Assembly: GCF_000384215.1 (NCBI RefSeq)
Contig: NZ_KB913032.1
Location: 1,203,021-1,267,020 of the forward strand
DNA length: 64,000 bases
Reading direction: 5' to 3'
From: Amycolatopsis alba DSM 44262
Lineage (GTDB): Bacteria; Actinomycetota; Actinomycetes; Mycobacteriales; Pseudonocardiaceae
Shown: piece by piece, positions 36,473 through 62,573 of the stretch
Numbering within the stretch: the stretch's first letter is position 1
Layout of the letters: every line of letters starts with the position of its first letter
Notes under the pieces: generated by a model
Told to the model about the DNA's origin: nothing
Databases searched by the model: none
What the model saw: only the letters and a program-made list of their open reading frames with translations
Position numbers and translations under genes: made by a program

Positions 36473-37209
36473 CGGCGTCCTTCGAATCCGCCCGCGTCGT
36501 CGCGGGGCGCGACAGGCCGCGAGGGGCCGGGCACCTCCGGCGGAGACGCGAGCCCGAGCTGGATGGCCTTGCGGACCAGGCCGGCCCGCCTTCTCTCTCC
36601 GAGTTTGTCACGGATCCGGTCCAGGTAACCGCGGACCGTCCGGACCCCGATGCCCAGGATGCGGGCGATGTCGACGTCGCGTTCGCCCGCCGCGACCAGC
36701 CGGAGGACCTGCTTCTCCCGCGCGGAGAGCGCGACGTCCGGAGCCGACACGGGCCGGTCGGCGTTGTCCTTGATGATCATTCCGGCCACCACCGCGGAAA
36801 CATAAGCCCGCCCCTGCGCGACCGTCCTGATCGCGGTCAGCAGTTCGTCGACGTCGACGTCCTTGGACAGGAATCCCTTGGCACCGGCGGCGATCGCGCC
36901 GAGCACCTGCTCGGACTCCGCCTGCGCGGACACCACGAGCACGTGATGCCCCAGTTCGCACACCTGGAGCACGGCCGCCGCCCCGGCGATCCCCGGCAGA
37001 CCGAGGTCGAGCAGCACCACACTGCCCGGCGGCTGCGGATGCACATGGAACCGGGCGACCGAATCGACCACCGCGCCCAGCTCGATCCCGTCGGCCTCGG
37101 TGAGGACCCGGACCACGGCGTGCCTGTACAACGGATGGTCTTCGATCACCGCGACGTCGACCCGGTCGGTCTCCGGTCTGTCTTCAGTCATCTGCACGTT
37201 CCCGCTCAC
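36469..37209 (-). CDS. NarL/LuxR-family response regulator 2 of ESX locus
   Basis: 246 residues from GTG 37209, which overlaps the eccB stop (GTGA); ATG 37191 is a shorter alternative. Receiver with VIEDH, LLDLGLPG and GFLSKD, LuxR HTH at about 170-230 (LSAREKQVLRLVAAGERDVDIARIL), plus a Pro/Arg-rich C-terminal tail absent from its paralogue. Position makes eccB-RR2-RR1 one transcript, so it may set ESX expression. Confidence 0.9.
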   Translation of the reverse strand: MSGNVQMTEDRPETDRVDVAVIEDHPLYRHAVVRVLTEADGIELGAVVDSVARFHVHPQPPGSVVLLDLGLPGIAGAAAVLQVCELGHHVLVVSAQAESEQVLGAIAAGAKGFLSKDVDVDELLTAIRTVAQGRAYVSAVVAGMIIKDNADRPVSAPDVALSAREKQVLRLVAAGERDVDIARILGIGVRTVRGYLDRIRDKLGERRRAGLVRKAIQLGLASPPEVPGPSRPVAPRDDAGGFEGRR

Positions 37210-38630
37210 CCCGTCCCACCTGCCGCGGACACCGCACGGCCCGCCTGCGCCGGATCCAGCGCGGGTCCGCGCGGAACCAGTGCCAGTAATCCATTCGGAA
37301 CCGGTTGCCGTTCGGCTTGGCCGTATCCGAGGGAAGCGAGTGCCTCGTTGCTCGCCACCGGGTACTTCAGGCCTGTGTCGGTCACGACGTAGACCGTGCC
37401 GGAACCGGATTCCGCCACCACCGCGCCTCCCGACGGAGGCACGAAGACCGCGTCGGCGACCAACGCGTCCGTGCGCGCCGTCACCGGTATCGCCTTCGCA
37501 CCTTGCGGCAACGGGACCTGTGCGGAGATAACGATTCGAGAACCCTGCGCGCATAACGTCACGGACTGTCCGGTAACGGGCGCTTTTCGCGGGATCCGGT
37601 CGGGATACTCCGCGGGATCGGCCCCGCCCGCCCTCGCCGTGCCGACCTTCGGCACCGCGGCGACGTCGGCCGCGCGCACCGCGACGGGGGCCGGGACGCC
37701 GCTGTAGGCGTCCGCGTTCTGCGGCGTGTTGATCAGCAGGCTCGCCGCGGTCTGGCCGATCGGTTCGAGCCCGTCGGCGTGGACGAGGTAGTAGGACGTC
37801 GCGTCGTTGGGCGACGCCATCGCGTCGACGACCCCGAGCACCGAACCGACCTTCGTCGCGGTGCCGCCGACCTTCGGGCCGGGCCGCCCGGCGTCTTCGA
37901 CCGCGCGGTAGGCCAGATCGCGTCCGGCGGCGACGGTGCCGATCCACCGGGAGGACACCGCGATCGCCGGGTAGGTGTCGAACTGCAACGCCGTGGCGGC
38001 CTCCGAGGTGAGCCGATAGCGGCGTCCCGCCGTCACGAGATACCGGTCCCCCTCGGGGACGCGGACCACCACGGCCTGATCCTTCGGAAGGTCGACTCCG
38101 GACGCGGGCGCGCCGAGGAGCACCGTCGTCTCCGGTTCGGCCGACGCGGGCGCGTCCTGGGTCGTCCGCGAGCAGCTCGTCCACGGGGTGTTCACCAGCG
38201 CGGCCGCCGCCGGCAGCGAGTCGGGGGCGCCGGGGATGCCGATCTGCGAACCGCGCGGGGCCTTCGCGAGCTTGTCCGAAGGGACGGTCACTGTGGCCTC
38301 GCCGTTGCCGCCCGCCATCAGCCGCGCGGAAGCGTAGTTGAGCACGGGATGCAGCGCGCCGTCCTGGCCGAGGATGTACCGCGCGCCGGTGCCCTCCTCG
38401 ACGATCACCTTGCCGCCCGCCAGCCAATCCTTGCCGCCGGAGGGGTTCAGCAGGCCGAGCACGCCGAACACCGCGGTGACCAGCAAGGCGACGCCGAGTC
38501 CGCACAGGGTTCCGATGACCAGCCTGCGGCTCGGGGCGACCGGATGGTTGGCGTCAGCCGAGACCAGTGCCGAAACCAGTCTCCTGCGGAGGAATTGGTA
38601 GGCCTGAATCTGGTCCCGCTGCGTCCACAC
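37206..38630 (-). CDS. eccB: Type VII secretion protein EccB
   Basis: 474 residues. Starts MWTQRDQIQAYQFLRRRLVSAL, the conserved EccB N-terminus; one TM helix at about 40-62; large periplasmic domain with R1-R4-type repeats and Cys pairs (WTSCS, TLCAQ). Part of the ESX inner-membrane complex with EccC, EccD and EccE. First gene of an operon with two response regulators; divergent from eccE. Confidence 0.95.
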   Translation of the reverse strand: MWTQRDQIQAYQFLRRRLVSALVSADANHPVAPSRRLVIGTLCGLGVALLVTAVFGVLGLLNPSGGKDWLAGGKVIVEEGTGARYILGQDGALHPVLNYASARLMAGGNGEATVTVPSDKLAKAPRGSQIGIPGAPDSLPAAAALVNTPWTSCSRTTQDAPASAEPETTVLLGAPASGVDLPKDQAVVVRVPEGDRYLVTAGRRYRLTSEAATALQFDTYPAIAVSSRWIGTVAAGRDLAYRAVEDAGRPGPKVGGTATKVGSVLGVVDAMASPNDATSYYLVHADGLEPIGQTAASLLINTPQNADAYSGVPAPVAVRAADVAAVPKVGTARAGGADPAEYPDRIPRKAPVTGQSVTLCAQGSRIVISAQVPLPQGAKAIPVTARTDALVADAVFVPPSGGAVVAESGSGTVYVVTDTGLKYPVASNEALASLGYGQAERQPVPNGLLALVPRGPALDPAQAGRAVSAAGGTG

Positions 38631-38777
38631 GCTCCCGTCCCCCGCCGTTCGTGCCCACCCGTTCGAGGGTGCTCACGTTAGGTTCCGGCCCCGGTTGGCG
38701 GTGAGGGTAATTTTTACGCCCCTCCCCCGCGCGGGGCGCGGCTACCGTCGAGCGCGTGCACGGAGAAGGGGAATTCC

Positions 38778-39863
38778 TTGTCGGTTGAAGCCCCGGCGGT
38801 GGGGACACCCCGCCCGACCCCGGAACAGACTCCCGCTCACGGCGTCGCGGGCGCGGCGCCGCTGCCCTGGCTGCTGCCGATCCGCCCGCTGCAGGCGGCG
38901 CTCTGGGAGATCGCCGGGATCGCGATCCTGCTCGCCTTGACCGTCGACGGGATCCCGCAGGCCGGGTGGATCAGCGTCACCGCGGCCGCCGGTGTCCTCC
39001 TGCTGACGACGTCGGTCCGGTTCGCCGGGCGCCACGCCGCCGGCTGGCTGCTCACCTGGGCCGGTTACCGGTTGAAGCGCCGCGACAAGAACGAGGTCCC
39101 CGATCCGCTGCACCGGCTCGCCGGTCCCGTCCGGGTGCGCCAGCATGTCGACCGTGCGGGCAACCGTTTCGGTGTCGCCGAGGTCCGCGACGGCTGGAGC
39201 GCCATCGTCCGGCTCACCCCCGGCGCCATGCAGCCCGGACCCGACACACTGACCGGAATCCTGCGCGAGGCGTACGCGAGCACCGGGATCCCCTTGTCCA
39301 GCGCGCAGCTTCTGACCTGGACAGTCCCTAATGGACAGTCCTTGCTCCGGGTCCGCTGGCTCACCGTCCGATACCGGCCCGAGGATGCGCCGATCGCGGC
39401 GCTCGCCCGCGGCGGCGGAGAACTCGGCGCGCTGCGGAGCACCGCCTGCGCGGCGCTGGCACTCATGGGCGCGCTGGCCGAAGCCGGGTTCGAGAGCACC
39501 GTGCTCGAAGCCGGTGAGGTGGCGGAAGAACTGCGCGTCGCGCTCGGGAGTGGTCAGGACGCGCCGGTGGACGGCTGGCGTTCCTGGGACTGGGGCGGCG
39601 CGTCGCAGGTCTGCTACCGGCCCAAGTCGGAGCGGGACCTCGCGCGGACATTGGATCTTCACGTGCCAGGCTCGGCGTTCACCGCGACTTCGTACACGCT
39701 GTACCGATCGCCCGGCGGGCGGGAGAAGTCCGAGGTGACCATCCGGGTCGGCGGGCGACCGGGAGCGGAAACGGCGCGGCCGAGCGGGATCGCGGTGACC
39801 CCGCTGCACGGACGGCACGCGACGGCGGTCCGGCGGACCCTTCCGCTGGCGCTGGAGAACTGA
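38778..39863 (+). CDS. eccE: Type VII secretion protein EccE
   Basis: 361 residues from TTG 38778 with GAAGGGG upstream. Two adjacent TM helices (about 35-55 and 62-80) followed by a cytosolic domain containing GNRFGVAEVRDGWSAIVRLT, typical of EccE. Peripheral subunit of the ESX membrane complex. The TTG start is unusual but no better in-frame start precedes the conserved region. Ends at a hairpin shared with eccD. Confidence 0.88.
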   Translation: MSVEAPAVGTPRPTPEQTPAHGVAGAAPLPWLLPIRPLQAALWEIAGIAILLALTVDGIPQAGWISVTAAAGVLLLTTSVRFAGRHAAGWLLTWAGYRLKRRDKNEVPDPLHRLAGPVRVRQHVDRAGNRFGVAEVRDGWSAIVRLTPGAMQPGPDTLTGILREAYASTGIPLSSAQLLTWTVPNGQSLLRVRWLTVRYRPEDAPIAALARGGGELGALRSTACAALALMGALAEAGFESTVLEAGEVAEELRVALGSGQDAPVDGWRSWDWGGASQVCYRPKSERDLARTLDLHVPGSAFTATSYTLYRSPGGREKSEVTIRVGGRPGAETARPSGIAVTPLHGRHATAVRRTLPLALEN

Positions 39864-39872
39864 GGGGGCTGT

Positions 39873-39922
39873 CCGTGGAGGACTCCTTTCCTCACTGAGG
39901 GTAGGGAAGGAGTCCTCCACGG
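39873..39922. terminator. Hairpin between convergent eccE and eccD
   Basis: Arms 39873-39891 and 39904-39922 (CCGTGGAGGACTCC core) pair with one mismatch; 12-nt loop. No T-run. Arm includes GGAG-ga-CTCC, so the arm can self-fold as in the other junction hairpins. Confidence 0.7.
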
Positions 39923-39944: not shown

Positions 39945-41321
39945 TCAGCCGCGCACGGCCTCGTAGACCCCGGCGATCATGCCGACGAACGGGACCAGGG
40001 AAAGCAACACCAGGAACTCGACGATGTCGAGAGTCCTTGCCCAGTAAGGCGAACGGCGTCCCTTCACGACACGGGTCGCGTAAGTGAGACAGACACCCGC
40101 GGCGACGACGACCGCGCAGCCCGCAGCGAAGACGAACGAACGCGGACCACCCGCGGCGAGCCAGGACCCGGCCGCCGCCAACGCGGCCGCGCCGAAACCG
40201 ATGAGCACGAGCCGCTGCGAACGACCCGCGAACGCGCGCGAGCGCAGCATCAGCGCCAGCCCCAGCAGCGCGCACAGGCCCGCTTCCCAAGCGCCGCCTG
40301 AAGACGACAGGACCACCGACGCCGAGACCACGGTGAGCCCGAGCGCGACGAGCAGCCCGGTCAGCAGCGACTGCGCGTAGGTCGTGCCGCCGACCATGTC
40401 CTCGCCGAGCGAAGGGTTCTCGTCGGCGCGGAACGCGTCCATGTCGTCGGGCACCCTGGGCAGGGGCAGCCTGCCGAGCCGCAGCGCCATCATCGGCGCC
40501 ACCGCGGCCAGCGCCGTCGCCACGACGGCGACCACGGCGGCCGCCGAAACCGCGCGGACGTCGGCGAGCAGGACGATGGCGGTGGTGATCGCGCCGAGCC
40601 CCGCCGACACGGTCACCGCGACGAACCAGGGCAGCCGGTCGGCCACCGAAACGGCCGCGATCACGCCGTACACGGTCACCACGGCGAGTCCGGCGGCCAG
40701 CGGCCCGGCCGACAGGGAGAACAGCGGATGCGGCGGCAGGATCGACATCCCGGCCAGCAGTGCCGCGCCGACCCCGGCGAGCGCGCCGGCGGCACCGGCC
40801 TCCGCGTCGCCGTACGCGCGGCTCAGCGCGCCACCGCCCAGCACCAGTACCAGCGCGAGCAGCCCGGTCCCGATCGGCGCCAGCACACTGCCGGACGCCG
40901 CCGCCTGCACCAGCAGGCCACCGGCGAGCAGCAGCACCACGGACGCGACGATGCCCGCCTTGCGCGCCACCGACGGTCCCCACCGGCCGGTGCCCGACTC
41001 GGCGACACTCGCGATCGAGTCGACGACGTCATCGAACAGCAACGGACCCCGCGGGCGTTCCCGCGGGGTCAAGTGGAGGACTTCGCCGTCGCGCACCTGC
41101 GCCGCGGCGACCGTGAGCCCGAGCGCGAGCGGAGCACCGCCGAGCCGGGACAGCACCCAGCCCGGATGCTCGGCCGACGCCTGTCCCGAAGCGCCCGCGA
41201 GCCGCACGAGCTGCGGGACGAGTTCGGCGAACGTGCTCTGCTGCGGCAGCGCCACATCGACACGCGCCCGCGGTGTCACCACCGTGACGCGCCGGGTGGA
41301 GCCCGCGATCGCGGCCGTCAT
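39945..41321 (-). CDS. eccD: Type VII secretion integral membrane protein EccD
   Basis: 458 residues. N-terminal ubiquitin-like domain (about 10-92, RRVTVVTPRARVDVALPQQ start) and 11 TM helices from about 118 on. Central membrane component of the ESX pore. Last gene of a six-gene minus operon (45388 to 39945) with secreted substrates upstream; ATG-region overlap with the YbaB-like stop/start boundary (ATGA). Confidence 0.93.
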   Translation of the reverse strand: MTAAIAGSTRRVTVVTPRARVDVALPQQSTFAELVPQLVRLAGASGQASAEHPGWVLSRLGGAPLALGLTVAAAQVRDGEVLHLTPRERPRGPLLFDDVVDSIASVAESGTGRWGPSVARKAGIVASVVLLLAGGLLVQAAASGSVLAPIGTGLLALVLVLGGGALSRAYGDAEAGAAGALAGVGAALLAGMSILPPHPLFSLSAGPLAAGLAVVTVYGVIAAVSVADRLPWFVAVTVSAGLGAITTAIVLLADVRAVSAAAVVAVVATALAAVAPMMALRLGRLPLPRVPDDMDAFRADENPSLGEDMVGGTTYAQSLLTGLLVALGLTVVSASVVLSSSGGAWEAGLCALLGLALMLRSRAFAGRSQRLVLIGFGAAALAAAGSWLAAGGPRSFVFAAGCAVVVAAGVCLTYATRVVKGRRSPYWARTLDIVEFLVLLSLVPFVGMIAGVYEAVRG

Positions 41322-42167: not shown

Positions 42168-43532
42168 TCACCACGTGCCCACGTAGGAGACCGCGTCGTC
42201 CCACGCCTCGCCGACGGCGTCCGCCGCCTGGCCGGCCGCACCGCTCACCGCGTCGACGGCCGCGCCGCCGTATTCGCCGACGGTGTCCGCGATCTTCGGC
42301 AGGTCGATGTCGATCTTCGCGCCGAGCCCGGCACCGAGGCCGAGCGCGACACCCGCCTTGAAGTTGACCTTGATGTGCCCGGCGTCGTAGACGGCCTGGC
42401 CGTCGAGCTGCGCGCCGAGTCCGTACTGGAGGGTGCCACTCGCGCCGACGCCCACTCCGGCCACGTCCGCCGCGAGCTCGCCTTCGATCTTACCGCCGAC
42501 GAAGGCGTTGGCGTGCACACCGACACCGTGCGCGCCGGCCTGGAGCGAACCGTTCACCTCGCCGCCGAGGAACGCGGTGCCCTTGGCGCTGCCCGAAGCG
42601 ACGCCCCATTCCTTCTTGCCTTCGAGTTCTTCCTTGAAGGCGGCGAGTTCCGCGTGACCGGACGCCTTGACGTCCCAACCCTGCGAGGAGACCTTGGCGT
42701 CCCAGCCGGGGGTGAAGCCGTCCTGCTCCTGCTTCCACTTGGCATACGTGATCTCGGTGTTGCCCCAGGCCTTGTCGCGCAGGCCATCCGGCTTCGGCCT
42801 GCCGAACGGCGTGTCGCCGGCACGCGGGGCGCGCGTGCCTTCGAGACCATCCCAGGTGAGCTTCTTCCAGCCGGAATTGCCGAACCAGGAAGGCTGCGAG
42901 CGCGGGCGCTTGCGGCCGTCGAGCGCTTCGCCGTTGAGCCAGTGCAACGGGCCGCGGCCCCATTTGCCGAGTTCGTGCTCGATCCGGCCGGTGCCCTCCG
43001 GCGGGAACAGGCGCGCGAGTTCCTCGCTCAGCTCGTCAGCGATCTCTTGCGCCGCCTGAGCAGCCCGTTCACCGAGCTGCCGGGCGGCGGAGATGAACGC
43101 GTTGACCGCGTTCGCGTTCGCCGTCCGCGCCTGGCTGGTGAGCTGCGCGGCGTACTGGTCGAACTGGGCGAGAATCGAGTCCACACAGGACTTCGCGCCC
43201 TGCAGGGCCTGCGCGCCCGCCCGCAGCCGGTTCGACTGGTCGCTCAGCTTCGCGCCGAGCTCACCGAGTTCCTCGCTCAGTTTCGCCGCGGACGTGGCGA
43301 ACGCGGTGTAGGCGTCGCCCTCCCAGGACGCGTTGAGCGCCTTCGCCGCCTTGCCGACCTCGTCCGCCCGGCCCGAAACCGTCGACGCCCGCTCACCGCA
43401 CCGCTGGCCGGCCGCGTTCAGCGCCGACGGGTCACCGGTGACCCGTCGCTGGTACTCGACCACGAGCCGCCGATAGTTCGACAGGATCGAGCTGACGACG
43501 CCCGACGCGTCGACCACACCGCTCCCCGACAC
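42168..43532 (-). CDS. Large WXG-type ESX substrate with glycine-rich C-terminal domain
   Basis: 454 residues. N-terminal helical WXG domain (about 1-105; WEG turn in ASWEGDAYTAFATSAAKL), a further coiled-coil stretch to about 170, a basic aromatic linker, then a Gly/Ala-rich repetitive segment (about 310-415) of alternating small and hydrophobic residues such as GVGVHANAFVGGKIEGEL. Acidic helical C-terminus. Fits a secreted polymorphic effector or surface protein. No known toxin motif recognised. Confidence 0.75.
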   Translation of the reverse strand: MSGSGVVDASGVVSSILSNYRRLVVEYQRRVTGDPSALNAAGQRCGERASTVSGRADEVGKAAKALNASWEGDAYTAFATSAAKLSEELGELGAKLSDQSNRLRAGAQALQGAKSCVDSILAQFDQYAAQLTSQARTANANAVNAFISAARQLGERAAQAAQEIADELSEELARLFPPEGTGRIEHELGKWGRGPLHWLNGEALDGRKRPRSQPSWFGNSGWKKLTWDGLEGTRAPRAGDTPFGRPKPDGLRDKAWGNTEITYAKWKQEQDGFTPGWDAKVSSQGWDVKASGHAELAAFKEELEGKKEWGVASGSAKGTAFLGGEVNGSLQAGAHGVGVHANAFVGGKIEGELAADVAGVGVGASGTLQYGLGAQLDGQAVYDAGHIKVNFKAGVALGLGAGLGAKIDIDLPKIADTVGEYGGAAVDAVSGAAGQAADAVGEAWDDAVSYVGTW

Positions 43533-43535
43533 GGT

Positions 43536-44594
43536 TTACCTGCCCTTCGCCGGTGAGTCGGCTCCTGCGTCGATGTCGATGTGCTGCTCGAAGTGCTTGC
43601 CGCCGAAGTTCATGTCGATGTCGATATCGATGTCCTGCCCGCCCGGCGCCTGCACGGTGGACTTGCCGGTGCTCAGGTCGGTGGTGATGGTGACCTGGTT
43701 GCCGTTGCCGGCGCTCGGCAGCGAGCCGCCGGAACCGGAACCACCGCCGGACGGTCTGTCCACCGGGATCCACGAGTCCGCGCCGCCCGGCCAGTTGCCC
43801 TGGGAACCGTTGCCGCCCAGCGCGGGCGGCCGGTACTGGGTGAACGGCGGCGTCTGGCCCGGCGTCGTGCCACCACCGGAAGCGCCGCCCGCACCACCGC
43901 CCGCGCCACCGCCGGAACCGCCGACCGCGGCCTGTCCCGAACCGCTGGCGACCGAGCCCGGCGCCTGCGGGTTGGTGACCGGGGTGCCGGAGACCGCCGA
44001 GTTGCCCGCCGCGCCGTTGTCCCCGGCGTCGTTGTGCCCGAACAGTTTCTGGACCTCGCCGATGATGGTGGCGATCTGGGTGATCTGGTTGGCGAGGTCG
44101 ACCACGCCGAGCGCCTTCAGCAGCGCGCCGATCGCTGTAATGAACGCGCGCAGCGAAGCGCTGGTGGCGGTGGAAAGCGCGACGGCGGCGCCGTAGGTCC
44201 ACGGATTCGACATCAGGCCCGCGACCGTCGGGTTCACCGCCGAGACCACCGCTTTGTAGGCGGTCTGCGCGGTCTTGATCAGCGTCCCGGCGATGCCGAG
44301 CAGCTCGGCGCCCTTCTGCACGACCTGGATGATCTTGGTCAGCGAGTTCAGCGAGTCGGTGATCTTCTTCATCGCCGAGTCCGACGCGCCACCGGACCAG
44401 ATCTTGCCCAGCTGCTCGGCGGCCTTCGTCACCTCGTTGTACATGGTGAGGAACTCGTTGGCCTTCTTGAGCACCTCGAGTACGTGCTTCGCGATCTGTT
44501 CCGGCTGGCCGGTGAGGATCTGCGGCAGGATGGTGATCGGCCCGCCCGAGCCCGCTGTCGCGTCCATCGCGCTGGAATTGGGGTAAGTCAGCAT
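43536..44594 (-). CDS. WXG-type ESX substrate with Gly/Ser/Pro-rich tail
   Basis: 352 residues. WXG-like helices (about 20-85, turn WSGGASDSAMKKI), a second helical and hydrophobic segment (about 95-185), then a low-complexity Gly/Ser/Pro region (about 195-300) and an Asp/Ile-rich end (QDIDIDIDMNFGGKHFEQHI). ATG 44594 is preceded by GGGAGGAG. PPE-like overall organisation. Probably exported by this ESX. Confidence 0.75.
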   Translation of the reverse strand: MLTYPNSSAMDATAGSGGPITILPQILTGQPEQIAKHVLEVLKKANEFLTMYNEVTKAAEQLGKIWSGGASDSAMKKITDSLNSLTKIIQVVQKGAELLGIAGTLIKTAQTAYKAVVSAVNPTVAGLMSNPWTYGAAVALSTATSASLRAFITAIGALLKALGVVDLANQITQIATIIGEVQKLFGHNDAGDNGAAGNSAVSGTPVTNPQAPGSVASGSGQAAVGGSGGGAGGGAGGASGGGTTPGQTPPFTQYRPPALGGNGSQGNWPGGADSWIPVDRPSGGGSGSGGSLPSAGNGNQVTITTDLSTGKSTVQAPGGQDIDIDIDMNFGGKHFEQHIDIDAGADSPAKGR

Positions 44595-44611
44595 GTCGCT
44601 CCTCCCGGAAG

Positions 44612-45388
44612 TCAGACGGAAGCCGGGCGGTAGACGCTGACCTTCGCCAGGCCGTTGATGTCCGCTTCGACGATTCCGTGGTTGTAGAGCAGCCCGCCTT
44701 CTCCGGCGATGGCGATGATCGGCTTGCTGTCGGAGAACAGGAGCGGTTCCACCACGACGACGTCTCCGCTGTGCACCCCGCCCGGCACGTCACCGAAGTT
44801 GCGCGCCGTACCGGCGTAGACCTCGATGACCCCGGCCCGCGCCTGGTTGTCGGCGTCACCGGCCAGCCAGTCGTTGAAGTCCGAGACGCCGTGGAACCGC
44901 GTGTCGGTGATCGGGTGGTCGCCGAGCTGCCCCAGCCGCGCGTCCCCCAGATAGCGCAGCACGTTGCCGACCGAAGACGGCTCGCCGTTGCCGCCGGCGC
45001 TGTCGTTGATGGCCAGCGTCGCCAGTTCGGACGCGTGCGAGTTCCCCCAGATCGACGACGTCGACCCCGCGCCGCCTCCGGGACGACCGCCGAATCCGCC
45101 CGCGACCGCCTCGTCGGCGGCCTGGTAGGCGTCGGCGCTGCTCTTGATGAAGCCGTTGATCTGCTGCAGCAGCTGCAGGAGCGTGCGTACCGCCACCACC
45201 TGCTGGCTCTGCATGGCCGTATTGGCCGCCGCCACCGCGCTGCCGAAGGTGGCGAACGACATCGGCTGCAGGACGGTGCGTTCGAGGTCGGCGACGACAT
45301 TGATGCCCTGCATGATGATGCCGCCCAGGTTCCCGACCGCCGAGCGCATGGCCTCGGGCTCCGCCCGGTACTCGCCCGTGCCGACCAT
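44612..45388 (-). CDS. ESX-associated protein with novel C-terminal domain
   Basis: 258 residues from ATG 45388, preceded by AAGGAG. Helical N-terminal half (about 1-95) lacks a clear WXG turn; Gly-rich linker (about 98-112); a 145-residue C-terminal domain with WGNSHASELATLAIND, TRFHGVSDFNDWLAGD and SGDVVVVEPLLFSDSKPI that I do not recognise. First gene of the six-gene operon ending in eccD, divergent from eccC. Confidence 0.7.
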   Translation of the reverse strand: MVGTGEYRAEPEAMRSAVGNLGGIIMQGINVVADLERTVLQPMSFATFGSAVAAANTAMQSQQVVAVRTLLQLLQQINGFIKSSADAYQAADEAVAGGFGGRPGGGAGSTSSIWGNSHASELATLAINDSAGGNGEPSSVGNVLRYLGDARLGQLGDHPITDTRFHGVSDFNDWLAGDADNQARAGVIEVYAGTARNFGDVPGGVHSGDVVVVEPLLFSDSKPIIAIAGEGGLLYNHGIVEADINGLAKVSVYRPASV

Positions 45389-45541
45389 GGCTCTCCTTTT
45401 CTCGTTCCCCCACGTCTGCGTTGACCAGCAGCGTAAGTTCGCCACCAGACGTGAGCGGACGGCAAAAGTACCCACCGCAACGGCGGCACGAGTGGCCAGA
45501 ATGATCGGCAGGATTACCCACAAGCGGCCAGAAAGACCCTG
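45389..45541. promoter_or_regulatory. Divergent eccC / substrate-operon promoter region
   Basis: 153 bp between two divergent ESX transcription units. TTGACC occurs near 45420 but no paired -10 is convincing. No palindrome that would suggest an operator was seen. Confidence 0.35.
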
Positions 45542-48500
45542 ATGAGCACCCCTCGCGACCGCCTGCCGGCCCTGGGCGAGCAGCCCGGTGAAATCGTCCT
45601 GCAGTCCCCGCCGATGCTGCCGAAGGGCTCCTCCGGCGGAGCCATGCAGCTGCTGATGTTCATGCCGATGATGCTGGGCATGGGCGCCATGTCGTTCGTC
45701 TACATCGGACGCGACGGCGGGGTGATGACGTACATCTTCGGCGCGTTGTTCCTCACCGCGATGGTGGGCATGGTCGTGATGTCACTCGGGCGTGGCGGCG
45801 CGGCGAAGAAGGCCCAGATCAACGAGGAGCGCCGGGACTACCAGCGGTATCTGACCGGTTTGCGCGGCCAGGTCCGCGAAATCGCGGACAACCAGCGCGC
45901 GGCCATGGCGGCGTTGCAGCCCGATCCGGCGGATCTGTGGGCGTACATCGAGACCGGCAGGCTGTGGGATCGCCGCCGGTCCGACTCGCAGTTCGCGCAG
46001 GTCCGCGTCGGGACCGGGCCGCAGCGGCTCGCGACACCGTTGAAAGCGCCGCAAACCGTGCCGCTGGAAGACCTCGACCCGGTGTGCTCGACCAACCTGA
46101 AGCACTTCATCCGGACCTATTCGACGGTCGAAGGGCTCCCGGTCGCGGTCTCGCTGCGGTCGTTCGCGCAGGTCAACCTGTCCGGACGCCGCCCGGACAC
46201 ACTCGGGACCGCGCGGGCGGTGCTGACCCAGCTCGCGACCTTCCATTCACCCGGCGACCTGCGGATCGCGCTCTGCGTCAAGAACGACCGGCTGCACGAC
46301 TGGGAATGGGCGAAATGGCTGCCGCATGTCGCCTCCACCGCCGCCGACGCCGCCGGTCCGCGACGGCTCGTCGACGCCGACTCCGGAAAGCTCGCCGACC
46401 TTCTCGGCCCCGACCTCGGCGACCGGCCCGCGTTCACCCGCCGTCCGGACTCCCGGCTGGATCTGCCGCATGTCGTCGTGATCGTGGACGGCGGGCACAC
46501 CCTCGCGGACGCGCGGCTCGTCGCCGAAGAGGGCAGGCTCGGTGTCACGGTGATCGAGATCGGCTCGGAGCAGCCGCGATCGGTGTCGTCCGAACGGCTG
46601 TTGAGCCTGCACACGAGCCCGGAGCAGCTCGGGATGGTCGTCGGCGACGGGACCGAACAGCGGCTCGGTTTCCTCGGCACGCCGGACACCTTGGACCGCG
46701 GGGCCGCCGAGGCGCTGGCCCGGATGCTGACGCCGCTGTTCCAGGGCGCGGCGGTGGTCAGCGAGGCGCCGATGTCGGCGACGTTCGGACTGGCCGGGCT
46801 GCTCGGCATCGGCGATCCGCGCGACACCGACACCACGGTCACCTGGGCGCCGCGGTCGGCACGGGACCGGTTGCGGATCCCGCTGGGCATCAACCCCGAG
46901 GGCAGGCCGGTCGACCTCGACCTCAAGGAGTCGGCGGAAGGCGGGATGGGCCCGCACGGGCTGGTCATCGGCGCGACCGGGTCCGGCAAGAGCGAACTGC
47001 TGCGGACGCTGGTCACCGCGCTCGCCGTCACGCATTCTTCGGAGAAGCTCAATCTCGCGCTGATCGACTTCAAGGGTGGCGCGACCTTCGCCGGCATGAC
47101 CGGGCTGCCGCACACCTGCGCCGTCATCACCAACCTGTCCGACGACCTCGCGCTGGTCGACCGCATGGCGGACGCGCTGAACGGTGAACTGCAGCGACGT
47201 CAGGAGCTTCTGCACGCGGCCGGGAACTACGCGTCGGTGCGGGACTACGAGAAGGCCAGGGAATCCGGTGTCAGCCTGCGACCCCTGCCGTCTTTGCTGG
47301 TGATCATCGACGAGTTCAGCGAGCTGCTGTCCTCCCGGCCGGAGTTCATCGACCTGTTCGTCGCGATCGGGCGGCTGGGGCGGAGTCTCGGGATCCACCT
47401 GCTGCTGGCTTCGCAGCGCCTGGAGGAGGGACGGCTGCGCGGGCTGGACTCGCATCTGTCGTACCGGATCGGCCTGCGGACCTTCTCCGCGTCGGAGAGC
47501 CGCGCGGTGCTCGGCGTCGCGGACGCCTACCAGCTTCCGCCCGTGCCGGGTTCGGCGTACCTGAAGTCCGACAACGACACCCTCATCAGGCTCAAGGCCG
47601 CGTATGTCTCGGGGGAGCTGCCGCCGCGCAGCAAGATCGTGCGCAAGGACGGGCAGAGCCTCGGGCTGATGCCGTTCACGCTGGCTCCGGTGGAGATCCC
47701 GGTGACCGTCGAGGCGGAGGAGCCAGTCGAAAAGGGGACCGGCGAGACGATCATCGGCGCGATGATCTCCCGGATCGAAGGCAAGGGCCCGGAGGCGCAC
47801 CAGATCTGGCTGCCGCCGCTGGCCGAACCGCCCACTCTCGACCAGTTGCTGCCGCCGCTCGGCGAGGACCCTGCACGCGGTTTGTGCCCGCTCGGCTGGG
47901 GCGGCAACGGCAAGCTGATGATCCCGGTCGCCCTGGTGGACAAGCCCTTCGAACAACGGCGCGACATGCTGTGGGCCGATTTCTCCGGTGCCGCCGGGCA
48001 CGCGCTGATCGTCGGGGCGCCGCAGAGCGGCAAGAGCACGCTGATGCGCGACCTCGCCGCGATGCTCGCGCTCACCCACACCCCGGAAGAGGTCCAGCTG
48101 TTCGTGCTGGACATGGGCGGTGGCGCGCTGGCGCCGATCGCCGGGCTGCCCCACGTGTCCGGCTACGCGACGAGGCGCGACGCGCAGCGCTGCCGCCGGG
48201 TGGTGGCGGAACTGACGACCCTGCTCGAACAACGTGAGGAGTTCTTCTCCGCCAACGGCATCGAGTCGATCACGACGTTCCGCCAGCGGCGTTCGGAGTT
48301 CCGAGAGAGCACGGAAGGCCGCGAATTCGGCGACGTCTTCCTGTTCGTGGACAACTGGACCACGATCCGCCAGGAATACGAGCAGCTGGAGGAACAGATC
48401 ACCAGCCTGGCGTCGCGCGGGCTCGGTTTCGGCATCCACGTCGTCGTCTCGATCAACCAGTGGATGGGCATGCGGGCGCCGCTGCGCGACGCCATCGGCA

Positions 48501-49483
48501 CCAAGTTCGAGCTGCGGCTGGGTGAGCCGGCGGACTCGCTGATCGACCGCAAGATCGCGCAGAACGTCCCGGCGGACCGGCCGGGCCGCGGGCTGACCGC
48601 GGACAAACTGCACTTCCTCGCGGCGCTCCCCCGCATCGATTCGGACCAGCGGCCGGACACGGTCGGTGCCGGCGGCCTCGATCTGAACCGGCGGATTTCC
48701 GCGGCGTGGAAGGGAAGCCCCGCGCCCGCCGTGCGCCTGCTCCCCGCCGAGGTGCCGCTGGACTCGCTGGAGGCCGGCCCGCGCAAGCAGGTCACCCTCG
48801 GCATCGCGGAGTCGAACCTGCAGCCGGTGTACCTCGATTTCGCCACCGAGCCGCATTTCGTGGCCTTCGGCGACGTCGAGTCCGGCAAGAGTTCGCTCCT
48901 GCGCGCGATCGCGCAGGGCATCACCGCCAAGTACTCGCCGGAGGAGGCGGCGATCGTGGTCGCCGACTACCGGCGCGGGATGCTGGGCGCGGTGCCGGAG
49001 TCGCATCTGCTCGGCTACGCCGGGTCCGAGACCGCGCTGACCGGGCTGATCGAACAGTGCCAGCAGGCCATGCGGAACCGGCTTCCCGGCTCGGATGTCA
49101 CTCCCGAGCAGCTGCGGAACCGGTCGTGGTGGCGGGGCCCGGATCTGTTCGTGCTCGTCGACGACTACGAAATGGTCGCGACCGTCGGCCGGAACCCCTT
49201 GCAGCCGCTGCTGGAATTCCTGCCGCAGGCGAGGGACATCGGGCTTCACCTCGTTGTCGCGCGCGGGAGCGGCGGCGCCGGGCGTTCGCTGTTCGAGCCC
49301 GTGCTGCAACGGATCCGCGAGCTGGGTTCCCCCGGTCTCGTGATGTCCGGATCGCGGGACGAGGGCGCGCTGCTCGGCGAGGTCAAGCCGGGGCCTCAGC
49401 CCGCGGGTCGGGGCGTGCTGGTCTCACGGCGGCACGGGACGGGACTGGTTCAGGTGGCTTGGACGAAACCCGTGGAGGACTGA
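45542..49483 (+). CDS. eccC: Type VII secretion ATPase EccC (fused EccCa-EccCb)
   Basis: 1313 residues. Two N-terminal TM helices (about 36-56 and 63-83), a domain of unknown function, then three FtsK/SpoIIIE ATPase modules with Walker A GATGSGKSELL (about 477), GAPQSGKSTLM (about 825) and GDVESGKSSLL (about 1110) and Walker B VIIDEF, LFVDNW and LVDDYE. Motor of ESX export; the third module normally binds the EsxB C-terminal signal. Single-polypeptide form as in ESX-2/3/5-type systems. Ends six bases from the convergent ANTAR gene. Confidence 0.96.
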   Translation: MSTPRDRLPALGEQPGEIVLQSPPMLPKGSSGGAMQLLMFMPMMLGMGAMSFVYIGRDGGVMTYIFGALFLTAMVGMVVMSLGRGGAAKKAQINEERRDYQRYLTGLRGQVREIADNQRAAMAALQPDPADLWAYIETGRLWDRRRSDSQFAQVRVGTGPQRLATPLKAPQTVPLEDLDPVCSTNLKHFIRTYSTVEGLPVAVSLRSFAQVNLSGRRPDTLGTARAVLTQLATFHSPGDLRIALCVKNDRLHDWEWAKWLPHVASTAADAAGPRRLVDADSGKLADLLGPDLGDRPAFTRRPDSRLDLPHVVVIVDGGHTLADARLVAEEGRLGVTVIEIGSEQPRSVSSERLLSLHTSPEQLGMVVGDGTEQRLGFLGTPDTLDRGAAEALARMLTPLFQGAAVVSEAPMSATFGLAGLLGIGDPRDTDTTVTWAPRSARDRLRIPLGINPEGRPVDLDLKESAEGGMGPHGLVIGATGSGKSELLRTLVTALAVTHSSEKLNLALIDFKGGATFAGMTGLPHTCAVITNLSDDLALVDRMADALNGELQRRQELLHAAGNYASVRDYEKARESGVSLRPLPSLLVIIDEFSELLSSRPEFIDLFVAIGRLGRSLGIHLLLASQRLEEGRLRGLDSHLSYRIGLRTFSASESRAVLGVADAYQLPPVPGSAYLKSDNDTLIRLKAAYVSGELPPRSKIVRKDGQSLGLMPFTLAPVEIPVTVEAEEPVEKGTGETIIGAMISRIEGKGPEAHQIWLPPLAEPPTLDQLLPPLGEDPARGLCPLGWGGNGKLMIPVALVDKPFEQRRDMLWADFSGAAGHALIVGAPQSGKSTLMRDLAAMLALTHTPEEVQLFVLDMGGGALAPIAGLPHVSGYATRRDAQRCRRVVAELTTLLEQREEFFSANGIESITTFRQRRSEFRESTEGREFGDVFLFVDNWTTIRQEYEQLEEQITSLASRGLGFGIHVVVSINQWMGMRAPLRDAIGTKFELRLGEPADSLIDRKIAQNVPADRPGRGLTADKLHFLAALPRIDSDQRPDTVGAGGLDLNRRISAAWKGSPAPAVRLLPAEVPLDSLEAGPRKQVTLGIAESNLQPVYLDFATEPHFVAFGDVESGKSSLLRAIAQGITAKYSPEEAAIVVADYRRGMLGAVPESHLLGYAGSETALTGLIEQCQQAMRNRLPGSDVTPEQLRNRSWWRGPDLFVLVDDYEMVATVGRNPLQPLLEFLPQARDIGLHLVVARGSGGAGRSLFEPVLQRIRELGSPGLVMSGSRDEGALLGEVKPGPQPAGRGVLVSRRHGTGLVQVAWTKPVED

Positions 49484-55959: not shown

Positions 55960-56153
55960 TGGCGTACTCCCCCGGATCGACGGTAGGGAAGGCCCTACCT
56001 CCGACCTGTGGGTAATAGTGCCGTCACCGTGACCGGCAGTTGTGCCGTTTGACCGCACTCCTGTCTTTTCTAGCGTGTCCTTCACAAGAGCAGACAGGGC
56101 GTCCCCTGGTGCTCACCGGGATTTCCAGCGAGATGAGAGGAGGTGGCCCATCA
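55960..56153. promoter_or_regulatory. esx operon upstream region
   Basis: 194 bp between divergent genes. AGAGGAGG (56135-56142) is the likely ribosome-binding site for the first esx gene. TAGCGT near 56073 could be a -10. No palindromic operator seen. Confidence 0.35.
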
Positions 56154-56495
56154 ATGACCGGTACGGGATATCAGGCAGACGCAGCTGCGATGGCGCGCGC
56201 CGTCCAGGGGTTCGAGGAAACCGCGTCGAACGCCAAGACCACGATGGCCAGCTTGGAGAGCGAGCTGACCCAGACCCTGCACAACTACAAGGGTGACCAG
56301 GCGGTCGCGTTCTGGGACCTGCAGCGCCGTCTGCAGGAGAAGATGACCGTCGCCGTGAACGAGCTCAACACGATGTCCCGCCTCGTTCACGAGAGCAACC
56401 GGAACTACAACTCCGGTGACGAGCAGGTCCGGGAAAGCCTGACCGGGGTAGCCGGAACCGTCGACCAGACCGTGATCCACCGGCTGAACCCCTGA
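56154..56495 (+). CDS. WXG100-like Esx protein (first of pair)
   Basis: 113 residues, two long helices separated by a turn at about 47-52. The turn reads NYKGDQAVAFWDLQ: the WXG tryptophan is Tyr and a Trp follows later. Secreted with the partner encoded 21 bp downstream as an EsxB/EsxA-type heterodimer, recognised by EccC. C-terminal part ends with HRLNP rather than a clear YxxxD/E export motif, although NYNSGDE precedes it. Confidence 0.82.
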   Translation: MTGTGYQADAAAMARAVQGFEETASNAKTTMASLESELTQTLHNYKGDQAVAFWDLQRRLQEKMTVAVNELNTMSRLVHESNRNYNSGDEQVRESLTGVAGTVDQTVIHRLNP

Positions 56496-56516
56496 TCCGC
56501 GAGAGGACCACCAATC

Positions 56517-56819
56517 ATGGCTGACGTCGTCGAAATCAACTTCGCCGCGCTGCAGCACAGCTCGGCCTCGCTGGCCGCCAAGGCCAAGGCGCTCACTTCT
56601 CAGCTCGAACAGCTGCACACCAACCTGCAGCCGATCACCCAGACCTGGTACGCCTCCGGCAGCTCCGCCGGTGAGGCCGCTCGTGCGTCTGAAACCCGCC
56701 TGCGCCAGGCCACCGCGGACATCGTGGCGATCGTCGCGCAGTTCGGTGGCAAGGTCGGCGACGCCCACGATCTCCAGCACAGCCTGGAGAACCGCAACCA
56801 GGGCCTGTTCGCCGGCTGA
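56517..56819 (+). CDS. WXG100-like Esx protein (second of pair)
   Basis: 100 residues, the standard Esx length. Helix-turn-helix hairpin, turn TWYASGSSAGEAARAS, so the Gly comes four after Trp (WYASG) instead of two. Likely heterodimer partner of the preceding gene product. RGAGAGGACC-type ribosome-binding site upstream. Confidence 0.85.
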   Translation: MADVVEINFAALQHSSASLAAKAKALTSQLEQLHTNLQPITQTWYASGSSAGEAARASETRLRQATADIVAIVAQFGGKVGDAHDLQHSLENRNQGLFAG

Positions 56820-56928
56820 TCCCCATCCGTCGGCCGGCCGGTGCTTTCACCCCCCTCGGCACCGGCCGGCCGGCTTTGCGCGTAGTCGTCCTTTGTTGGC
56901 ATGGCCGATCACGAGAGAGCCGGGATCA

Positions 56929-57333
56929 ATGCAAGACCAGTCGTACTACGTCCATCTGGAATCACTGAAGGACTTCGTGCGGGAACTGGAGACCCAGATC
57001 CATGCGATGTCCAAGCCGAACGACTTCCTGCTGACCCTGAGCGAGCACCCGCTGTTGTTCGGCGAGTTCGGGGAGGCGGGTTCCTTGAACAAGGCGCACC
57101 AGGCGGCCGTCGCCGAGATGCAGGGGCTGCTGGACCAGGTCAAGGGCGCGATCACCTTCGCGCAGGACGTCACCACGACCGTCGCGGACGGCTATGCCGC
57201 GGCCGATGACTCGGTCGCGGGCGACATGAACCACTCCAGCCAGCAGACCGGGCTGCTCGATCCGCTGCTCAACGTCCTCGGCGGCGTGCTGGGTGGCAAC
57301 AGCGGCTCGAACGGCGGGGGGAACAAGGGATGA
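56929..57333 (+). CDS. Helical ESX-associated protein
   Basis: 134 residues from ATG 56929. Two-helix WXG-superfamily-like core (MQDQSYYVHLESLKDFVREL; NKAHQAAVAEMQGLLDQVKG), then a Gly/Asn-rich tail. No WXG motif. Sits between the Esx pair and the PPE-like gene and overlaps the latter (ATGA). Probably a co-secreted subunit or pairing partner of the next protein. Confidence 0.75.
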   Translation: MQDQSYYVHLESLKDFVRELETQIHAMSKPNDFLLTLSEHPLLFGEFGEAGSLNKAHQAAVAEMQGLLDQVKGAITFAQDVTTTVADGYAAADDSVAGDMNHSSQQTGLLDPLLNVLGGVLGGNSGSNGGGNKG

Positions 57334-58637
57334 CCGACACCGCGCACACGAACTTCGCCGCGTACTCCCACCAGCAGCTCTACGCGATGCTGCAGGCGGG
57401 CGACCCCAACACGGCACGCCACGCGGCCCACAAGTGGCAGTCCACCGGCTCCGGCCTGTTCGAACAGGCCGAGAACCTGACCGGCGAGCTGAAGGACTTC
57501 TCCGGCAGCTGGACCGGTGGCGCCGCCGACAAGTACCACACGATGATCACCGACCTGGTCGGCGGAATCCGCAAGGTCGCCCAGACCGCGAACGCGATGA
57601 ACCACCTCCTCGAGGACGCGGCGGACGCGCTGGTGAAAGCCAAGAAGGAGATGCCGCCGCCGGTCGCGGTGCCGGACTGTTCTCCCGCCGACGTCGCCCT
57701 GGCGGTCAACCCGCCTCTGCTGCCCCCGGACTCGTCGCCTGCGACGATCATCAACGCCGCCCAGCAGCGGCAGCAGGCCATCGCGAACGTCGAAGCGCAG
57801 CAGCAGGCCGCGGGTGCGGCCAGCGCGGCGCACAGCAAGGCGATCGTGGTGATGACCCAGCTCGCGGGCGAGTACTCGACGGCGGAGGAGTCCATTCCGG
57901 CATCGCCGAACGCCGTCACCCCGCCGCCGGTCACCGGCGGCGGCTCGGCTCCGGGTGGCGGCTCCGTCGGCAACAACATCGGCGGAACGCCGGGTGTCGG
58001 CGTGCTGCCGGGCGACAACACGCACCCGTTGCCGTCTGACGGCTCCACCCCGCCCACCACCGGGCAGCCCGGCCAGCCTCCGAAGTCGAACCCGTTGTTC
58101 GGCGACATGTTCACCGCCGGTCTCGCGGCGGCTTCGGCCGCCGCGTTCGGCCGGTTCGGCTCGATCATGCCGCGCGTTCCGGGGTGGGCCAACGGCAAGA
58201 ACCCGAACGAAGGCAAGGACAAGAACGGCGAGCCCGTCGGCGGCGGTGCCGGTGCGGCAGGCGCGACCGCGGGTGGCGCGGGCGGCGGCATCCCGATCGG
58301 CGGTGGCGGGGCTCCGTCGCTGGACGGCGGCGCGATCGGCGGCGGCGGGGTCTCCGGGCCCGGCGAAGTGCCCGCCGCGTTCTCCGGTCTGGCAGGCGAC
58401 GGCGGCTCGGGCAGCGCGATGAGCGGGCTGGCGGGCGGCGCGGCCGGTGCCGCGGGCGCGGCGGCGGCCAAGGGCGCGATGCCGATGATGCCCATGATGC
58501 CGATGGGCATGGGCGCGGGCGGCGACATGGGCTCCGGACGACGGATCCCGCCGTGGCTCGTGGAGACCGAGAACGTCTGGGGTCAGTCGTCCCCGGTCGC
58601 TCCGGCCGTGCTCGGCGAAGAACCCGAACAGTACTGA
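57330..58637 (+). CDS. Large WXG/PPE-like ESX substrate
   Basis: 435 residues. N-terminal helical domain (about 1-190) with turn SWTGGAADKYHTM, a Pro/Gly-rich stretch, a hydrophobic segment near 255-270, a long Gly/Ala-rich region (about 300-410) and the conserved-looking C-terminus RIPPWLVETENVWG...GEEPEQY. The end-motif occurs in actinobacterial PPE-like ESX proteins. Likely secreted with the preceding protein, like a PE-PPE pair; no EspG gene is present. Confidence 0.82.
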   Translation: MTDTAHTNFAAYSHQQLYAMLQAGDPNTARHAAHKWQSTGSGLFEQAENLTGELKDFSGSWTGGAADKYHTMITDLVGGIRKVAQTANAMNHLLEDAADALVKAKKEMPPPVAVPDCSPADVALAVNPPLLPPDSSPATIINAAQQRQQAIANVEAQQQAAGAASAAHSKAIVVMTQLAGEYSTAEESIPASPNAVTPPPVTGGGSAPGGGSVGNNIGGTPGVGVLPGDNTHPLPSDGSTPPTTGQPGQPPKSNPLFGDMFTAGLAAASAAAFGRFGSIMPRVPGWANGKNPNEGKDKNGEPVGGGAGAAGATAGGAGGGIPIGGGGAPSLDGGAIGGGGVSGPGEVPAAFSGLAGDGGSGSAMSGLAGGAAGAAGAAAAKGAMPMMPMMPMGMGAGGDMGSGRRIPPWLVETENVWGQSSPVAPAVLGEEPEQY

Positions 58638-60424: not shown

Positions 60425-60474
60425 CCTCGTGAGTGGCAGTGGTGTCCCCCAGTACACCGCTGCCGCTCACGAGG
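60425..60474. terminator. 21-bp hairpin overlapping mycP stop
   Basis: Arms 60425-60445 and 60454-60474, fully paired with two G-U pairs; 8-nt loop. Shares the TCGTGAGTGGC word with repeats near 17204 and 19052. Contains the mycP stop codon. Confidence 0.7.
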
Positions 60475-61636
60475 CGCGAAATCGCGAAGGCCGCCAGCCT
60501 CGGCGCTTGCCGCGCCGGACCGTGGCCACCACCACTCCCGCCGCGATGGCGACGGCCACCCCGACGATGGCGAGCACGCCGGAAACCTTGTCGGATCCCG
60601 CGCGGGCGGGTGCCGCCGCGGGGACGACGAAGGTGTCCGGGCCGACGCTCGGCGGTCCTCCCGGACCGGGCGTCCCGGCCGGGATCGCGGCGGAAACGGC
60701 GGCGTAGGCGTCGATCGCGCCCCAGCCCCGCCGGGGATCGTGCCCGCCGCTCGGGCCGCGCCGCGCGGTCAGCGTCAGCCGGGCGACGATCTGCTCGGGC
60801 GACAACTCGGGGTGATACGCGCGCACGAGCGCCGCGACGCCCGCCACATGCGCGGCGGCCAGGCTGGGATCGCTCACCGGCCACCGGTGCGCCACGGTGC
60901 CGCCCGCGCCCGCGGACGTGCTGACCAGTTCGGCTCCGGGCGCGGAAATCCCCACGTAGGAACCGGATTCCGTCTGTACCGCTTCGCCCGCCTGATTGGT
61001 CGAACCCACGGCGAGCACGCCGGGTGTCGCGGTCGGGTAGGACGTCTGCCCCTGCTGCGTCCCCGCGGCGGGAGAGACGATCAGCGCGCCTTTCTCCTTG
61101 GCGCGCGAAACGGCGCCGCCGAGCGCGGGGCTGTCGGAAGCGGCCGGGACGGCGATCAGGATGATCCCGGCGCCGCGGTTCAGCGCGGTTTCGATGGCGC
61201 CCGCGAGCTGCGCGGGATCGCCTCCGCCGTTCACCTGGGTGTAGCGGATCGGCAGGATCTTGGCGCCGGGCGCGATCCCGACGAATGTCGTGGACGGATC
61301 CGGCTGCGCGCCGACGATCCCGGCGGCGATCGTGCCCCGGCCGTCGCAGTCGTCGGACTGCGTGCCCTGGCCACCGACGAGCTGACCGGACGCGAACTGG
61401 CCGTTGCTCCCGTCGACTCCGGTGCCGATCACCGCGATCAGCTGGCCGGTGCCGCGCGACAGCGGCCAGATCCGGGCGGGATCGATCAGCCGCTGTCCCC
61501 ACGGGACGGCCGCGGTGTAGGTGCCGGTCGGGTTCGCGCACTGCTCGGCGACCGCCGCCGACGGGACGGGAGCGCCGAGCAGAGCCACGACCGCCGCACT
61601 CCCCACAACGGCACTTTTACCGGCAAAGCCCACCAT
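60467..61636 (-). CDS. mycP: Mycosin-like ESX subtilase, catalytically degenerate
   Basis: 389 residues with signal peptide (1 to about 30), subtilase domain and C-terminal TM helix (352-373), the mycosin layout. Catalytic sites: Asp is Gly71 (AVIGTGVD instead of AVIDTGV), His is Arg100 (DCDGRGT instead of DGHGT), oxyanion Asn is Thr193 (AAGT), and GTS before the Ser is DPS with only Ser258 kept. Protease activity is therefore unlikely; a structural role in the ESX complex, as known for mycosins, remains possible. Confidence 0.88.
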   Translation of the reverse strand: MVGFAGKSAVVGSAAVVALLGAPVPSAAVAEQCANPTGTYTAAVPWGQRLIDPARIWPLSRGTGQLIAVIGTGVDGSNGQFASGQLVGGQGTQSDDCDGRGTIAAGIVGAQPDPSTTFVGIAPGAKILPIRYTQVNGGGDPAQLAGAIETALNRGAGIILIAVPAASDSPALGGAVSRAKEKGALIVSPAAGTQQGQTSYPTATPGVLAVGSTNQAGEAVQTESGSYVGISAPGAELVSTSAGAGGTVAHRWPVSDPSLAAAHVAGVAALVRAYHPELSPEQIVARLTLTARRGPSGGHDPRRGWGAIDAYAAVSAAIPAGTPGPGGPPSVGPDTFVVPAAAPARAGSDKVSGVLAIVGVAVAIAAGVVVATVRRGKRRGWRPSRFRAS

Positions 61637-61642
61637 TCCTCC

Positions 61643-61671
61643 AGAATTCCCTTGTCACACAAGGAAATTCT
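61643..61671. terminator. A+T-rich hairpin between nadC and mycP
   Basis: AGAATTCCCTTGT (61643-61655), CAC loop, ACAAGGAAATTCT (61659-61671), one mismatch. Follows the nadC stop on the minus strand, so probably ends the nad operon; it also sits just before the mycP start and could be an operator. Confidence 0.5.
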
Positions 61672-61682
61672 AGTGCCGAAGG

Positions 61683-62573
61683 TCAGCGCAGGTCCATCCC
61701 GAGGTCGAGCGCGGGTGAGGAATGGGTGAGCGCCCCGACGGCGAGGAAGTCCACACCGGACGCCGCGTACGCCCGCGCCGCGTCCAGCCGTAACCCACCG
61801 GAGGATTCCAGCCGGGTCTTCGGCGAAACCTCGTCGCGCCTGTCGACGGCTTTCGCGCACTCGTCCGGCGTGAAGTTGTCCAGCAGTACCTCGTCGGCTC
61901 CCGCGGCGAGCGCCTCTTCCAGTTGATCCAGGTCGTCGACCTCGACCTCGCAGTGCAGTTCGGGCGCGTGTTCGCGAGCGGCGGCGAGCGCGGCGGTCAC
62001 CGAACCCGCGGCGACCACGTGGTTGTCCTTGATCAGCACCGCGTCGCCGAGCCCGAGCCGGTGGTTCACCCCGCCGCCCGCGCGGACGGCGTACTTCTCC
62101 AGCAACCGCAGTCCGGGCAGGGTCTTGCGGGAATCCCTGACCCGGCAACCGGTTCCCTCCATCGCGGCCACCCAGGCGGCGGTCGCGGTGGCGATACCGG
62201 ACAGGTGACACAGCAGGTTCAGCGCGGTGCGTTCGGCGGTGAGCAGGCCACGCACCGGACCGCGGACGACCAGCGCGGGCTCGCCGGCGGTCAGCCGGTC
62301 ACCGTCGTCACGGGCGGCCAGGATCTCCAGGCCCGAACCGAGCACGACGTCGAACACCGCCAGCGCCACCGGGATCCCGGCGACCACACCGGCCGTCCTC
62401 GGTGTGAGTTCGGCGAGCGCGTTCGCGGACTCGGGCACGGTGGCGTTCGTCGTCGCGTCGGGCCCGTAGCGCAGGTCTTCGGCCAGCGCCGTGGTGACGA
62501 CGCGCCGCACATCGTCGACGTCGAGACCGTGCTCGGCCAGCGCCTTGGTGACCCACGGGGAGAATTCGGTCAT
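61683..62573 (-). CDS. nadC: Quinolinate phosphoribosyltransferase
   Basis: 296 residues. Decarboxylating phosphoribosylation of quinolinate to NaMN. Motifs RTALNLLCHLSGIATAT, RDSRKTLPGLRLLEKYAVRAGGG, HRLGLGDAVLIKDNH and VDFLAVGALTHSSPALDLG are complete. ATG overlaps the nadB stop (ATGA), so the nad genes form one operon; nadA is presumably upstream beyond the window. Confidence 0.97.
   Translation of the reverse strand: MTEFSPWVTKALAEHGLDVDDVRRVVTTALAEDLRYGPDATTNATVPESANALAELTPRTAGVVAGIPVALAVFDVVLGSGLEILAARDDGDRLTAGEPALVVRGPVRGLLTAERTALNLLCHLSGIATATAAWVAAMEGTGCRVRDSRKTLPGLRLLEKYAVRAGGGVNHRLGLGDAVLIKDNHVVAAGSVTAALAAAREHAPELHCEVEVDDLDQLEEALAAGADEVLLDNFTPDECAKAVDRRDEVSPKTRLESSGGLRLDAARAYAASGVDFLAVGALTHSSPALDLGMDLR

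Follow-up and report, generated by a model that had tools for sequence, protein, structure and literature searches.

Why would an ESX secretion locus keep a mycosin that has lost its protease site? The question is raised by the window, a stretch of 64,000 nucleotides from the 9.81 Mb chromosome of Amycolatopsis alba DSM 44262 (C1:1203021-1267020), in which a gene on the minus strand (60467..61636) encodes a mycosin-like protein. Mycosins reside at ESX loci and carry a C-terminal membrane helix. The initial annotation proposed that this protein has lost its catalytic positions, that it is the only visible mycosin of its locus, and that such a pseudoprotease would separate the structural from the enzymatic role of mycosins. 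We found it to be a genuine mycosin homologue without catalytic machinery, neither a sequencing error nor a pseudogene, the MycP that belongs to one complete ESX system, and it travels with its own ESX core. It is in all probability catalytically dead, and most likely holds the EccB assembly together without cutting.

A mycosin fold without the catalytic residues

The open reading frame of this gene, hereafter the pseudo-mycosin, was confirmed and encodes 389 amino acids. Its start is hydrophobic by eye, with a putative signal peptide at about residues 1–30, an N-terminal extension with Cys33, a subtilase domain at about residues 41–321, a C-terminal helix at residues 350–378 in the predicted model, and a basic tail. 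The Peptidase_S8 profile (PF00082) matched residues 62–306 at 94.7 bits, above its cut-off of 21.8, and the mycosin profile (TIGR03921) matched residues 53–379 at 237.5 bits, below its curated cut-off of 278.75. In the alignment with MycP1 (PDB), the Asp region reads AVIDTGVNGS in MycP1 and AVIGTGVDGS here (Asp to Gly71), the His region DCDAHGT and DCDGRGT (His to Arg100), and the Ser region LNGTSFSAA and VSDPSLAAA (GTS to DPS, with Ser258 retained), while alignment with the two intact mycosins encoded elsewhere in this genome puts Thr193 at the oxyanion Asn position. All of these positions had been assigned correctly from the sequence alone. The protein lacks the catalytic triad of an active subtilase; an intact triad elsewhere in it was rejected, as none was seen in the alignments or the predicted model. 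Judged by profile score and triad it is no mycosin protease; its fold, anatomy and locus mark it as a mycosin homologue.

An AlphaFold2 model of the protein had a mean predicted local distance difference test (pLDDT) score of 85.6 and a predicted template modelling (pTM) score of 0.77. Ten-residue blocks of the domain mostly had a pLDDT of 93–99, with one at 75, and those of the C-terminal helix reached only 69–84. The best structural matches of the model were subtilisins, MycP3 and MycP1, and MycP5 of the ESX-5 complex was also matched. As modelled, the subtilase fold of MycP1 and MycP3 is kept, with triad and oxyanion residues replaced inside an otherwise mycosin-like domain; because the fold is intact in the model, the protein does not look like a collapsed relic. 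Like MycP1 and MycP3 (PDB 4j94, 4kb5 and 4kg7), it has a subtilase fold, an N-terminal extension and a DC..GT motif with its Cys. Unlike them, it has other residues at the Asp, His and oxyanion Asn positions, DPS for GTS, internal segments that are shorter in the alignment, and a score under the TIGR03921 cut-off.

Loss of the catalytic site across orthologues

A search of 80 Amycolatopsis genomes with the pseudo-mycosin gave matches at E 1e-60 or better in 71. Of 249 genomes sampled from the family, which represent 46 genera, 37 had a match of at least 270 bits; 20 of these 37 belong to eight genera other than Amycolatopsis, and the next-best matches began at 207 bits. Together, the 71 genus and 20 other-genus genomes provided 91 distinct strong matches, which were read as orthologues. 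We found that the Asp, the His, the oxyanion Asn and the GTS motif were all lost in 91 of 91. The Asp site (Gly71 codon, 61424..61426, this and the following codons being on the minus strand) has Gly in 84 orthologues and Ala in the other 7. At the His site (Arg100 codon, 61337..61339) there are 90 Arg and a single Gln, the Arg being spelled by five codons (CGC, CGG, CGT, CGA and AGG). The oxyanion site (Thr193 codon, 61058..61060) varies more, with Thr in 63, Ser and Asp in 10 each, Lys in 4, and Ala and Glu in 2 each. At the Gly-Thr-Ser site (Asp256-Pro257-Ser258 codons, 60863..60871), the Ser position holds Ser in 37, Gly in 36, Ala in 15, and Thr, Pro or Leu in 3. A "TGA inside" flag on two other-genus matches (G090 and G108) was traced, by the frames read, to stops at the C-terminal end of the match.

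The remark that only the Ser remains is thus accurate for the window sequence and fails for the clade, in which the Ser is retained in 37 orthologues and gone in 54. The retained Ser258 might be taken to mean that the protein is active by an unusual mechanism that uses other residues; since 54 of 91 orthologues have lost this Ser with the remainder of the protein conserved, we consider such activity extremely improbable. Loss of several catalytic residues is also what decay would give, and the gene could in principle be a relic, whether a pseudogene in an ESX locus that is dying or an artefact of sequencing. The same losses in all 91 orthologues, low ratios of nonsynonymous to synonymous substitution (dN/dS), open frames and the presence of the ESX core genes speak against this, and the sole decaying case (G055, described below) looks different, so that a relic deserves hardly any credence. 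Sequencing error or chance was rejected outright, error being untenable because the orthologues carry the same losses.

Some residues are specific to the clade and nearly invariant in it: Asp98, Pro164 and Glu223 occur in all 91 orthologues, Arg100 in 90 and Pro257 in 89, and 23 intact relatives mostly have other residues at these positions. This conservation is compatible with a new function of the former cleft. For example, a remodelled site that faces the secretion chamber might bind or gate substrates without cutting them, besides or instead of scaffolding. The active sites of MycP5 do face the chamber (PMC8131196), but the conservation of these residues could serve folding alone, and we regard a new cleft function as possible, on the doubtful side.

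Of 24 weaker matches in the family, 23 had intact motifs and one was without the His and Ser. The latter (L147, from genome G291 of another genus) has His replaced by Gln and Ser by Ala with the Asp kept, and may represent a third protease-dead mycosin. Beyond the family, 298 genomes of the order yielded no match outside the genus at E 1e-58 or better (11 matches, all from the own genus), and 394 genomes of the class yielded one match at this threshold, the own genome; both draws were too sparse to show even the positive other genera, and no share outside the family is given.

Origin and selection

A tree of 73 rows placed the 39 clade members sampled in a single group, with support of 100/99. 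The dead mycosins of this type are one clade with one origin. Pairwise dN/dS by NG86 ranged from 0.09 to 0.32 over 15 pairs and was at most 0.20 in 13 of them; the two pairs that included a decaying copy (L141) gave 0.20 and 0.25. With YN00, the values for 12 of the 15 pairs were 0.02–0.10. The clade is under purifying selection.

Association with the ESX core

Presence of the pseudo-mycosin followed that of the EccD of its locus nearly perfectly. Within the genus, an EccD orthologue (555 bits or more, other EccD matches being at most 168 bits) was found in 69 of the 71 genomes with the pseudo-mycosin and in none of the 9 without it. In the family sample (339 bits or more, others 181 or less) the corresponding counts were 36 of 37 and 0 of 212. 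Fisher tests of this co-occurrence gave 2e-10 for the genus and 1e-42 for the family sample, both uncorrected for kinship. The exceptions were G037, a draft of about 190 contigs, and G055 in the genus, and G090, a 74% complete genome, in the family sample. In the 19 other-genus genomes with both genes, the two lie on the same contig, 11–29 kb apart, and in the other-genus stretches that hold both eccB and the pseudo-mycosin (L124, L126, L155, L156, L157, L161 and L219) these genes are separated by 0.7–4.4 kb; in the remaining stretches no eccB was seen in the portion that was read. In the window itself, the gene is encoded with eccB, eccC, eccD and WXG100 genes, at a distance of about 11 kb from eccC and about 22 kb from eccB. 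The initial annotation had suggested looking for the same substitutions in orthologues: the losses are complete in all 91, under purifying selection and in company with EccD.

In G055 (L226 and L227) the ESX locus is in ruins: EccD is missing, EccC is reduced to a 42-residue trace in the 35 kb read, and EccB is mostly present. The pseudo-mycosin of this genome is damaged too: its conserved N-terminus is gone, and so are residues including Thr102 and Trp305; nadB-nadC are matched in full. Such joint decay, seen in this single case, would be expected of a protein that is of no use apart from its machine.

Other mycosins in the same genomes

Four EccD genes are present in this genome, each with one of the four highest-scoring mycosin matches nearby; the fifth-best (160 bits, C1:8471887) has no EccD close to it. 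Among ORFs of at least 200 amino acids in the window, a two-pattern motif scan found no intact subtilase motifs, in agreement with the view that the pseudo-mycosin is the only mycosin of its locus. A hidden second intact mycosin in the locus was rejected, as the scan of the window and 20 fetched stretches found none; as a control, the scan recovered both intact mycosins of the own genome, all 30 of the genus and, among the 24 weaker matches in the family, 23, the sole miss being L147. A second intact mycP, which the initial annotation had asked for elsewhere in the genome, exists in two copies (C1:1779653 and C1:4487088), each beside another ESX locus; the two intact mycosins score 311 and 348 bits with TIGR03921.

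Every one of the 80 genus genomes has another mycosin that scores above the family cut-off, and the 30 genus loci fetched from the mycosin search (30 genomes) were all intact by motif. Cutting in trans is therefore possible: intact mycosins of other ESX loci, two of them in the own genome, might join the complex as mixed trimers or process its substrates, with the dead copy as partner. Against such a division of labour, published work describes each MycP as acting inside its own system (PMC5082899), and the dead copy tracks its own EccD. We consider it unlikely.

A further protease-dead mycosin lies on the minus strand at C1:131810-132937 (L028:11808-12938, about C1:131807-132937; match listed at C1:131837), in its own ESX locus, which brings the ESX loci with such proteins in this genome to two out of four. 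It was found in 8 of the 80 genus genomes, the same 8 that have the EccD of its locus. Like the pseudo-mycosin of the window, it is protease-dead and stands beside its own ESX core; unlike it, it keeps the Asp and His and has lost the Ser in 8 of 8 (Ala in 7, Gly in 1). The oxyanion Asn is replaced by Arg in 5 of 8, the genomes in which the search pattern found the site. These different losses suggest, as far as residues can tell, that the two dead lineages arose independently. The tree joins them at 90/89 over long branches, and such joins may be false.

A probable structural role for the dead mycosin

Published work on other systems offers a role for a mycosin that does not cut. MycP is required for secretion by ESX-1 and ESX-5, its protease activity is not, and the complexes are unstable without it (PMC5082899). 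In ESX-5, three MycP5 cap and join three EccB5 dimers (PMC8131196). Like the active-site mutants of MycP1 and MycP5, which still support secretion (PMC5082899), the pseudo-mycosin would be protease-dead; the mutants were engineered, while the dead state here is natural and clade-wide. MycP5 in the ESX-5 complex (PDB 7np7) was a Foldseek match of the model, and the expected place of the pseudo-mycosin would likewise be that of a cap and clamp on EccB. Loop 5 of MycP5 (PMC8131196) is missing in the pseudo-mycosin, for which a role can be proposed only by comparison.

By analogy with MycP1 and MycP5 (PMC5082899, PMC8131196), we infer the following. The signal peptide would export the protein and the C-terminal helix would anchor it, so that the subtilase domain could sit on the EccB assembly outside the membrane and keep the EccB dimers joined, the part that MycP5 plays in ESX-5; substrates would not be cut by it. 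The simplest reading is that the clade kept the clamp and dropped the protease. A dead protease retained with the rest of its machine through much evolution suggests that it is now a structural part, and we consider such a clamp probable. Some observations weigh against it. The near-invariant, clade-specific residues at the old active site (Arg100 and Pro257) suggest more than scaffolding, cutting could be supplied by the other mycosins of all 80 genus genomes, and the G037 draft has the gene with no EccD orthologue detected. The initial reading, a pseudoprotease in which the structural and enzymatic roles are separate, is supported with the qualification that the structural part of it leans on the published MycP1 and MycP5 work.

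Engineered mutants have so far been used to study why ESX systems need mycosins though the protease activity is dispensable (PMC5082899). In searches of the open-access literature of PubMed Central, to which subscription papers are mostly external, we found no description of natural protease-dead mycosins and no paper pairing "mycosin" with "pseudoprotease". The pseudo-mycosin offers a case in which nature has separated the two roles and many species have kept them apart, and other mycosins of the same cells serve as internal controls; a structural role thereby becomes directly testable in soil bacteria, and the clade shows what a mycosin must keep once cutting is no longer selected. On a broader proposition we lean neither way: that ESX systems dispensed with mycosin proteolysis more than once (in one lineage that spans at least nine genera of the family, in another found in certain Amycolatopsis species, and perhaps in a third, L147), that the mycosin is a core structural subunit with an optional protease, and that in the main lineage the dead site, with its near-invariant Arg, was turned to a new use, under selection, where the secretion chamber has its mouth.

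Organization of the ESX locus

EccB, EccD and EccC are encoded within 37206-49483 of the window and the WXG100/PPE-like genes within 56040-58637. On the minus strand lie EccB (37206..38630), which has the GIPGAP motif in the alignment with EccB5; a candidate EccE of 392 amino acids (38742..39920), assigned by its position between EccD and EccB and without a Pfam or NCBIfam match; EccD (39945..41321); a WXG100-domain protein (42168..43532); and two further proteins, one with no Pfam or NCBIfam match (43536..44594) and one with no Pfam match (44612..45523). On the plus strand are EccC (45542..49483), with 1313 amino acids and three Walker A patterns; a WXG100 protein (56130..56495, the start used in the search, the longest ORF starting at 56040); a WXG100-like protein below the Pfam cut-off (56517..56819); a WXG100/PPE-like protein (57330..58637) that scored just over the Pfam cut-off for WXG100_2 and under those for WXG100 and PPE; and an alpha/beta hydrolase (PF06259; 58666..60015). 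The genes eccB, eccC, eccD and mycP have been reported in an Amycolatopsis strain (PMC11004387), in an article whose accessible parts say nothing about the active site.

Between eccC and the WXG100 genes lies a gene for a trypsin-like protein (52959-53663), which might replace mycosin proteolysis. It matches PF00089, has His, Asp and GDSGG motifs and a signal-like start by eye, and is also present in genus loci L211, L212 and L214. By tblastn (E 1e-4), it was not found in genus loci L215 and L226/L227 (the ruined locus of G055), nor in 12 other-genus dead-mycosin loci (13 stretches). We therefore rejected a general replacement, given its absence from the other-genus loci searched, and regard replacement by this protein as quite improbable.

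On the other side of the pseudo-mycosin are nadB-nadC (61637-63916). Its start lies 46 bases downstream of nadC, and cotranscription with the NAD synthesis genes is therefore possible in the window. The same nadB-nadC pair precedes the pseudo-mycosin in the genus loci that were read across (L159, L160, L213, L215 and L227).
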